IMG/VR virus record: IMGVR_UViG_3300026367_000088
Location: 1 to 36,044 of that record
DNA length: 36,044 nucleotides
Origin: a virus
Reading direction: 5' to 3' (one strand)
A program made the position numbers and the translations under genes. The notes beneath the pieces were generated by a model. That model did not search any database. It was not told the DNA's origin and saw only the letters and a program-made list of their open reading frames with translations. This document shows, piece by piece, positions 26,411 through 28,150 of this stretch (position 1 is the first letter of the stretch; every line of letters starts with the position of its first letter).

Positions 26411-26584
26411 CTACTGATATTCGACTGATAGTTTAGTGACACTGCTCAGCCGTTCATTGAGCACATAGAGAATATTCGCTACATCTTCGCTGCTGCAACT
26501 GCGGGCTTCGCTGGCCAGACTGCTCAGGCCCATGTACGCGGCATTGAGTGATTGCAGCTCATCGGTTAATTCAAGCCGGCTCAT
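26411..26584 (-). CDS. Small hypothetical protein (57 aa) coupled to the antirepressor-like gene
   Basis: The true start is ATG 26584 (MSRLELTDELQSLNAAYMGL); a much longer open frame on the same side runs through the antirepressor gene and is a shadow. The ATG overlaps the TGA of the shifted antirepressor frame (CGATGAG), so the pair was once or still is translationally coupled. The protein is a helical, serine/leucine-rich two-helix unit with one conserved-looking cysteine. Function unknown; perhaps a cofactor of the antirepressor. Confidence 0.6.
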   Translation of the reverse strand: MSRLELTDELQSLNAAYMGLSSLASEARSCSSEDVANILYVLNERLSSVTKLSVEYQ

Positions 26585-27056
26585 CGTGTCACCCTCAAGG
26601 CTTTGCGAAGATACCCGCCCACCGATGATGGGTTGCGCCCCAGCAGTCTGCCGATTTCGCCGTTGTTTTTGCCCTGGGCATGCAGGGCAATGATTTGCTG
26701 GCTGGTTTATCCGCTTGTGGCTGTTGATGGGTTTCGAGTACATCGAGCACCCACTGACGAAACTGCTTGGCGCGCTCGGTTTGTGCCCACATGGCCAGCA
26801 TCCAGGCACCGCGTGAGCTAAAGATTCGGACTTGTCTCTGCTTTCCATCAACCGTACCCATATCGACTACGGTTGTCATTTTCTCTGTGAATTCATCGGC
26901 ATGACGATTATAAAGCTTATTAGCACCGATTCTGGCGTGCTTTAAACCAATAGCTAAACCGATCTGTTCGCCGGTGAGCCAGGCCTGTTGATGATGGTCG
27001 ATTACTTCAATGGGATAGCCATTAAAACTGGCGAGATGAGTAGAGATATTAGACAT
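26581..27056 (-). pseudogene. BRO-N family antirepressor-like protein, frameshifted near its C-terminus
   Basis: ATG 27056 with AAAAGGAGA upstream. Residues 1-110 form a BRO-N-like domain (FNGYPIEVIDHHQQAWLTGE, VRIFSSRGAWMLAMWAQTER, FRQWVLDVLETH). As sequenced the frame ends at 26595 (153 aa) in a low-complexity tail. In the -1 frame the same DNA encodes SQQIIALHAQGKNNGEIGRL followed by LGRNPSSVGGYLRKAL, a typical helix-turn-helix, and stops exactly as ATGA with the next gene. A single-base change between about 26681 and 26706 therefore disrupted a BRO-N/HTH protein, unless the base is a sequencing error or recoding occurs. Such proteins act as prophage antirepressors. Confidence 0.75.
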
Positions 27057-27082
27057 TGCTGTCTCCTTTTGATTTCTTTGAA

Positions 27083-27169
27083 TTAACCCTTATTCCGTAA
27101 GGGTGCCGGGAGGTTCAAAACGGCCAAAAGTAACCGCGGATTTATTTCCCCGAAGGGTATTGTATTCAT
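27083..27169 (-). CDS. Leader ORF (28 aa) in the antirepressor message, icd-like
   Basis: ATG 27169 follows GGGAGGGG at very short spacing. The peptide begins MNTIPFGEINPR and stops at 27083, 26 bases before the antirepressor start. It spans both sequences complementary to the upstream C4-type RNA. This is the arrangement in phages P1 and P7, where C4 pairs near the start of the small icd frame and so blocks translation of ant. Real translation here is inferred from position and the purine-rich site. Confidence 0.5.
   Translation of the reverse strand: MNTIPFGEINPRLLLAVLNLPAPLRNKG
27111..27154 (-). promoter_or_regulatory. Antisense target sites in the leader of the antirepressor mRNA
   Basis: On the minus-strand RNA, CUUUUGGCCGUUUUGAACCU (27130-27111) pairs with the first loop region of the C4-type RNA (27266-27247), with 2 + 1 mismatches over 20 nt. 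UUCGGGG (27154-27148) pairs perfectly over seven bases with CCCCGAA in its second loop. Both sites are inside the leader ORF. Confidence 0.65.
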
Positions 27170-27212
27170 CCCCTCCCGACTTAACGGGGTTGCGTGCCCG
27201 GAAACCGGGCAC

Positions 27213-27270
27213 AAAAAAACCAACACTTTCGGGGCTGGACATTCCGCTTTTGGAGGTTTTGAAGCCTCAG
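27213..27270 (-). ncRNA. C4-type antisense RNA
   Basis: Downstream of the promoter the transcript folds into two hairpins. GAGG-CUUCAAAA-CCUC (27268-27253) shows an eight-base loop with the first antisense seed. CCAGC-CCCGAAAGU-GUUGG shows the second seed and is followed by seven U (27219-27213), so it may also terminate. Both loops complement the leader of the BRO-type gene. This is the layout of C4 RNA, the immunity antisense RNA of P1/P7 found in front of many prophage antirepressor genes. A further strong hairpin (27212-27194, GUGCCCGG/CCGGGCAC) separates it from the leader ORF. Confidence 0.72.
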
Positions 27271-27276
27271 ACGCGG

Positions 27277-27306
27277 ATACTACGCCCCGATTGTTTTGTT
27301 TGTCAA
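27277..27306 (-). promoter_or_regulatory. Sigma-70-type promoter for the C4/antirepressor transcript
   Basis: TTGACA (27306-27301) is a perfect -35 box, 18 bp from TAGTAT (27282-27277). It begins right after the lipoprotein stop. Start of transcription would be near 27270, just before the first C4 hairpin. Because it is close to consensus it would be active in the lysogen, as expected for C4. Confidence 0.75.
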
Positions 27307-27768
27307 TTATCTGAGATTGGCTGTGTAGTCCGCGCCAGATGGCATTAAGTAGCTGTTTTCAGGTAAGAACATATTCTTATCTGCACACACTGAAGCACAG
27401 GCATGCTTGGGTACTCCAATTGTTTTATTGTGATCGTAAATTCGGAAATGGCAATGATGTCCCCAAGCCTTATAGCTATTAGGGATCCTTTTCGGATCAT
27501 CACTAACAGCATATGAGATAGTTACCCAAGCTTCTTTATCATCCATGAATGGCTCAAGGTAATCTCTCATCTCAGAAAACGTTAGATCATCTTGGTATCT
27601 ATTTAAACCCGGGCATTGTGCTAAAAAGGCATCCCAGTTTTCAGTAACTAGTATTTTCACTTCTTCACTTTGATTACTCATATCTGGTATGGATAAAGGC
27701 TGTTTTTCTGCTTCAGCAGAACATCCCGCTAATAGAATTAAAGCAATAGTCGATAGTAAGAATTTCAT
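27307..27768 (-). CDS. Small lipoprotein (153 aa), possible lysogenic-conversion gene
   Basis: The start is ATG 27768, with TAAGGAAATAATA just upstream; a longer frame to 27810 overlaps mor. Residues 1-16 are a type II signal (MKFLLSTIALILLAGC) with lipobox LAGC and C16 as the lipidated residue. The mature part has five more cysteines (LAQC, HHCHF, KHACASVCADK), perhaps disulphides in the periplasm. It is 13 nt after mor, so it may share that transcript. No family recognised. Cell-surface lipoproteins of prophages often block superinfection, but that is inference. Its flat codon pattern hints at foreign origin. Confidence 0.8.
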   Translation of the reverse strand: MKFLLSTIALILLAGCSAEAEKQPLSIPDMSNQSEEVKILVTENWDAFLAQCPGLNRYQDDLTFSEMRDYLEPFMDDKEAWVTISYAVSDDPKRIPNSYKAWGHHCHFRIYDHNKTIGVPKHACASVCADKNMFLPENSYLMPSGADYTANLR

Positions 27769-27781
27769 TATTATTTCCTTA

Positions 27782-28150
27782 TTAGAACAGCTTGGCTTGC
27801 CGATCATCATCCTGACTGACCGATAGGCGATTATAAACAGCTCGTTCGGTGATGCCTAACTGACGAGCAATTTCCGCCCTGGTGAGACCTGCCTCATCCA
27901 GTCGTTTGGTTTCTTCCACAGCCAGCCGATCCAGTTGCGCCTGCAGTTTGGGGATGGCCAGTTTTTCATTGCGGAAGGTATGGGTAAACTCTTTGTATTG
28001 TTCTGGCGTTAAGATTTGCTTTAAGTCGCCACGTCCAGGCACCCGGATTACGACACCACCATAGTGTTTGACCAGACGCATCAGGCCATCTAAGCCGATG
28101 ACCTCCGCTATCTCGCGTGCTACTGGGGGCAAGTAATCCGGCAGATTCAT
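27782..28150 (-). CDS. mor: Mor-family middle transcription activator
   Basis: 122 aa, the size of Mu Mor (129). The N-terminal dimerisation part (EIAEVIGLDGLMRLVKHYGG, about 13-32) is followed by the C-terminal HTH LTRAEIARQLGITERAVYNRL (89-109). Mor/C proteins bind as dimers and recruit RNA polymerase to middle and late promoters. It is the last regulatory gene of the early operon, and its ATG overlaps the upstream stop (ATGA). No second member (C protein) is present, so this protein may drive the late genes itself. Confidence 0.9.
   Translation of the reverse strand: MNLPDYLPPVAREIAEVIGLDGLMRLVKHYGGVVIRVPGRGDLKQILTPEQYKEFTHTFRNEKLAIPKLQAQLDRLAVEETKRLDEAGLTRAEIARQLGITERAVYNRLSVSQDDDRQAKLF

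Follow-up and report, generated by a model that had tools for sequence, protein, structure and literature searches.

sRNA-Xcc1 as a likely C4-type antirepressor-control RNA in a Mu-like phage

The window, a 36,044-nt stretch of viral DNA (IMG/VR record IMGVR_UViG_3300026367_000088), carries what is likely a C4-type antirepressor-control cassette, in which an antisense RNA of the sRNA-Xcc1 family would pair over the Shine-Dalgarno (SD) sequence of a BRO-N antirepressor gene and be antagonised by a short RNA from the same promoter. Our computations establish the order of the parts, the fold, the complementarity, a three-way covariation and the class of the downstream gene. All parts of the cassette lie on the minus strand.

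Covariance-model searches of the whole window identified a match to sRNA-Xcc1 (RF02221) at 27180-27097(-), with 66.5 bits against a gathering score of 53 and an E-value of 4e-10. A reading made from the letters alone (hereafter the sequence-only reading) had suggested running the C4 model on the cassette; RF01695 gave nothing in the window, even at E<=5, and nothing in G000, and RF02221 matched instead. The IsrK model (RF01394) likewise found no match in the window, so that direct membership in RF01695 or RF01394 was ruled out. The covariance model and the predicted fold divide the 84-nt segment (27097..27180) into an outer stem P1, a constant hairpin P2 and a specificity hairpin P3. The specificity sequence b' (CTTTTGG, 27124..27130) occupies the loop region of P3, as supported by the fold and by covariation, and the sequence a' (GTTTTGAACC, 27112..27121), which was assigned by covariation, lies 3' of P3. 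When compared directly, the C4 RNA of phage P1 showed the same three-stem form, with b' within the P3 loop and a' directly 3' of P3. Moreover, the trinucleotide ACC (27102..27104) stands directly 3' of the P1 stem; NCC is common at this position in the family and resembles an RNase P-recognition end, which is consistent with RNase P cleavage.

The near-consensus promoter TTGACA-18-TAGTAT described earlier is indeed present on the minus strand (27277..27306), with its -35 element at 27306-27301, an 18-nt spacer and its -10 element at 27282-27277. It is followed by the S element (27213..27270), an a1/b1-type short RNA of about 58 nt that is predicted to end at its own terminator. The terminal hairpin and U7 tract previously noted for this unit were seen at 27238-27213 and resemble an intrinsic terminator. 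Within the S element, site a1 (TTCAAAACC, 27255..27263) is complementary to a', and site b1 (CCAAAAG, 27247..27253) is complementary to the b' loop, both assignments resting on pairing and covariation. Duplex prediction, another check suggested by the sequence-only reading, bore out strong complementarity between the short RNA and the leader: the duplex with sRNA-Xcc1 reached -46.5 kcal/mol, a value equalled by 1 of 500 dinucleotide shuffles.

The same seed recurs in front of the BRO-N gene, where it had been overlooked. Downstream of a small spacer hairpin (CCCTTA-CGGAA-TAAGGG, 27087..27103; sequence and fold), sites a2 (TTCAAA, 27077..27082) and b2 (27063..27071) have the same sense as the short unit and are supported by covariation; b2 comprises CAAAAG (27071-27066) and overlaps the antirepressor SD, AAAGGAG. 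The predicted duplex of the SD site with sRNA-Xcc1 is modest in the window, at -22.3 kcal/mol, and was equalled by 14 of 500 shuffles. The gene itself (26595..27056, 153 aa as read) matches Pfam PF02498 (E 7e-7; 30.2 bits against a cut-off of 25.6) and PHROG anti-repressor families (best E 1e-34), confirming that a BRO-type gene lies downstream of the leader. An antirepressor gene is found directly 3' of the RNA both in the window and in its relatives.

Related loci were retrieved from genome and viral collections with a DNA pattern built from the constant P2 hairpin, from which the specificity loop was excluded. We read 213 distinct stretches, and parsing of the stems left 136 non-redundant loci with distinct loops for testing. 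Against a null in which loops were permuted among loci (loop duplicates taken out, kinship uncorrected), the reverse complement of the P3 loop matched its own upstream site over a mean of 6.12 bases (4.23 +/- 0.07 permuted, z 27) and its own SD region over a mean of 5.79 bases (4.10 +/- 0.07 permuted, z 24). Matches of at least 6 bases occurred upstream in 76% and at the SD in 62% of loci, as compared to 8% with permuted partners, and the sense-strand control for b' loop matching was null across the 136 loci. The SD copy most often ended 9 nt 5' of the ATG. The a' sequence covaried with its upstream and downstream sites too (z 20 and 14), and thus both a1,b1 upstream and a2,b2 at the SD covary with the RNA. 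Of the outcomes that the sequence-only reading had named as counting against it, the lack of a C4-model hit came true for RF01695, whereas the absence of covariation in related phages did not. Its first seed, a1-b1 with a'-b', is real and covaries in more than 130 loci. Its second seed, a 7/7 match of the terminator loop with the P2 loop, showed no covariation (z 0.5) and was discarded. An S-type element with a terminator-like U-run 3' of b1 is present in 184 of 203 loci.

The surroundings of the cassette agree with its proposed nature and placement: an RNA-based immunity module that includes an antirepressor, carried by a Mu-like phage and located between early and late-activator genes and the lysis genes. 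Pfam and PHROG matches place a Mu transposase, GemA and a late-activator-like protein on one side, and a GH108 endolysin and a holin on the other. A 167-aa ORF (27307-27810, -) without a Pfam match separates the cassette from the late-activator gene; by eye, its N-terminus resembles a lipoprotein signal (LLAGC). A second virus record, L283, which contains Mu Gp27, GemA, a terminase, a GH108 endolysin and a holin, carries the cassette at the same location, with a different seed (entry L242) that matches its own sites. The arrangement is therefore not unique to the window.

The closest parallel in design is the C4 system of phages P1 and P7 (RF01695; a1,b1 RF03163), in which the order is likewise promoter, a1,b1, terminator, three-stem RNA, a2,b2 at the SD and antirepressor, with b' in the P3 loop, a' after P3, and a variable seed on a constant scaffold. 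The annotated P1 record reads promoter, a1, b1, C4 (77 nt), a2, b2 and start codon; the end of b2 is 10 nt away from the start codon. C4 is known to be an RNase P-processed, separate RNA whose b' loop occludes the ribosome-binding site (PMC5320573). The two cassettes differ in several respects. The constant P2 motif of the window (ATACAAYACCC..GGGRAAT) is distinct, and the C4 covariance model does not match; a2 adjoins the RNA in P1, whereas it lies beyond the spacer hairpin in the window; and b2 is located at icd in P1 but at the antirepressor SD itself in the window. By eye, 20 genomic C4 loci share the design of P1, and isrK/c4-a1b1 is found immediately 5' of C4 in C4 loci. An HMM of the Xcc1-type S elements gave one match (E 0.001) against these 20 loci and P1, so that, in this set, the test for homology between the S elements of the two kinds of cassette was essentially negative. 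Common descent with C4 is accordingly backed by layout and not by sequence: the two kinds of cassette have layout and logic in common, and sequence homology is not established. Given the P1-like order, the self-matching b' in 136 loci and the antirepressor families downstream, we conclude that, as judged from comparative sequence data, sRNA-Xcc1 is a second sequence family of C4-type antirepressor-control RNA.

This comparison also revises the C4/icd/ant arrangement first proposed for the locus. The C4-style antirepressor module stands, but its parts were inverted: sRNA-Xcc1 (27180-27097) is in the place of C4, and the 27270-27213 transcript, once taken for C4, corresponds by its P1 position and shape to the a1,b1 element. 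We now regard it as highly improbable that the short RNA is itself a C4-type repressor that silences the leader through an icd-like ORF. Its complementarity to the leader and its own promoter and terminator fit such a role, but both its position and its shape are wrong with respect to P1, it does not pair with the SD, being of like sense to the site there, and its second seed lacks covariation. The small icd-like leader ORF said to span both targets was dropped as well, since no ORF through the pairing sites exists in 139 of 207 relatives and the distance from RNA to ATG is random modulo 3 (36/36/33). A different possibility, which we consider somewhat unlikely, is that the cassette has decayed and its RNAs are relics. 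In this record, a frameshift near 26,700 disrupts the antirepressor ORF, a feature the sequence-only reading had missed, and an HTH-like C-terminus (QQIIALHAQGKNNGEIGRLLGRNPSSVG...) continues to about 26,581 in a frame other than that of the N-terminal domain (window 26581-26720), whereas the BRO-N gene of the related Mu-like record L283 is intact (193 aa). However, the a1, b1, a', b', a2 and b2 matches are all preserved within the window, and a sequencing error may account for the broken frame.

By analogy with known systems, we infer that the RNA is processed and represses the antirepressor, that the short RNA antagonises it, and that the cassette has a role in immunity. In this model, one promoter would give rise to a short terminated RNA containing a1 and b1 and to a readthrough transcript that includes Xcc1 as well as the antirepressor gene. 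The Xcc1 RNA would be cut free at the foot of the P1 stem, probably by RNase P, as in C4. The b' loop and a' strand of the freed RNA would then pair with b2 and a2, and repression of the antirepressor by pairing over its SD is the most likely function of sRNA-Xcc1. With the SD masked, no antirepressor would be made and lysogeny would be kept. Conversely, the short a1,b1 RNA, being complementary to a' and b', may titrate or block Xcc1 and thereby permit antirepressor synthesis; antagonism of Xcc1 is its probable role, on the model of short IsrK in Gifsy-1. When the whole readthrough transcript is folded to minimum energy, a1 and b1 sequester a' and b' and the SD is open. This fold fits antagonism in cis, but it also speaks against the model in that the antirepressor may be ON by default in cis.

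Two known phage systems offer other ways of reading the same parts. In Gifsy-1, IsrK (RF01394)/STnc1160/AnrP also comprises a short terminated RNA that is complementary to a downstream readthrough part and controls an antirepressor; there, short IsrK switches on in trans a readthrough mRNA that is otherwise inactive, raising anrP translation more than 100-fold (PMC4825925). The window could by this precedent contain a switch in which the Xcc1 segment masks the SD only in cis and the short RNA is the sole trans regulator, turning the antirepressor on. In three of the C4 loci scanned, a member of the isrK family immediately precedes C4, at the place expected for a1,b1, and the predicted duplex of short RNA and Xcc1 is stronger than that of the SD and Xcc1. 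We nevertheless think this unlikely. A discrete sRNA-Xcc1 of 88 nt has been mapped by RACE in Xanthomonas (PMC2996969) and one of 89 nt, with a low ribosome-coverage value of 0.02, was reported in E. coli O157:H7 (PMC5331693), and a purely cis-acting element would have no need of a free RNA; the NCC 3' of the P1 stem suggests excision; and the C4 of P1 works as a processed, separate RNA. The Gifsy-1 system also differs in that IsrK works via orf45, and no such ORF is conserved among the relatives of the window. Satellite phage P4 provides the second precedent: as described in PMC4825925, its order is seqA - CI RNA - seqC, so that complementary sites likewise flank a processed RNA. Were the window to work in this way, Xcc1 would pair with nascent a1,b1 and cause termination at U7, and the antirepressor would be off because it is not transcribed. 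The terminator-like U-run that follows b1 in most loci is compatible with such control. P4 differs in that transcription termination acts on replication genes and not on an antirepressor SD. In our loci, the seed copy at the SD shows covariation as strong as that of the upstream site, for which termination alone is insufficient. We therefore rate P4-like control as quite unlikely and retain SD pairing by a C4-type Xcc1 RNA as the preferred reading.

The genes downstream of sRNA-Xcc1 are varied. Among 83 downstream proteins from loci with an SD copy, the Pfam assignments were Bro-N 18, KilA-N 16, P22_AR_C 13, pRha 12, ORF6C 10, AntA 9, P22_AR_N 8 and ORF6N 8, and at these loci most downstream proteins match PHROG anti-repressor families. 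The cassette thus appears swappable, serving unrelated antirepressors, and the related switches each seem to have their own matched pairing code. RF02221 was also found in Vibrio phages and on records of conjugative plasmids from Klebsiella and Enterobacter, including one of type IncL/M. Within one class, which was reached from a Lelliottia genome, 369 genomes were sampled and 26 contained it. C4-type control would therefore comprise at least two sequence families and extend to Mu-like phages and a conjugative plasmid. A practical aspect is that such cassettes may provide many naturally occurring RNA pairs that seem to be mutually orthogonal and follow simple rules of seed pairing.

Xanthomonadales loci deviate from this pattern. 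The Xanthomonas integron sRNA-Xcc1 (RF02221) shares sequence and fold with the RNA of the window, and the upstream site of Xanthomonadales loci still matches the b' loop; these copies precede XAC0095-family genes, and the b2 copy at the SD is mostly missing. Among 39 comparison loci, most of them with no SD copy detected, 15 downstream proteins were assigned to the XAC0095 family; these come from Xanthomonadales. One Xanthomonas genome contains ten RF02221 copies (L273-L282), of which all nine that could be parsed have different, self-matching seeds; one has kept its SD copy, and a full SD copy is missing in the others. The loops of orphan Xcc1 copies matched the SDs of other cassettes over a mean of 4.93 bases, as compared to 4.38 for shuffled loops, which is no clear excess.

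In the literature, sRNA-Xcc1 figures as a trans-acting, virulence-linked sRNA. It was suggested to favour the virulence of Aeromonas salmonicida (PMC8780938), and action on plant genes from Xylella vesicles has been proposed (PMC12189769). A targeted look at several openly accessible papers that mention both sRNA-Xcc1 and phage found no link of this RNA to antirepressor control. On our results, these RNAs look like phage immunity RNAs with their true target close by, at the antirepressor SD. This would supply both function and origin for a family that has been cited as a virulence regulator in Xanthomonas. We further raise, as a speculative idea with a low chance of being correct, that sRNA-Xcc1 is a large family of addressable phage antirepressor-silencing RNAs rather than a dedicated virulence sRNA, and that the multiple Xanthomonas copies, which differ in seed, each match their own upstream element and mostly lack an antirepressor, are captured elements for multi-specific phage protection or control. 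If so, these captured copies would act on phages whose antirepressor SD bears a matching seed.

Several loci combine more than one RNA element. Tandem sRNA-Xcc1 copies with differing loops, about 250-370 bp apart, occur in L183 (6880-7420), L176 (1040-1560) and L114, and the upstream copies of L183 and L176 have no antirepressor gene. On a conjugative plasmid (L011, 1664-1732), an RNA-OUT antisense RNA adjoins an sRNA-Xcc1 cassette. Finally, an E. coli prophage region (L009, 1381-2903) contains a C4-type and an sRNA-Xcc1-type cassette in tandem, each in front of an ORF6N-type gene.
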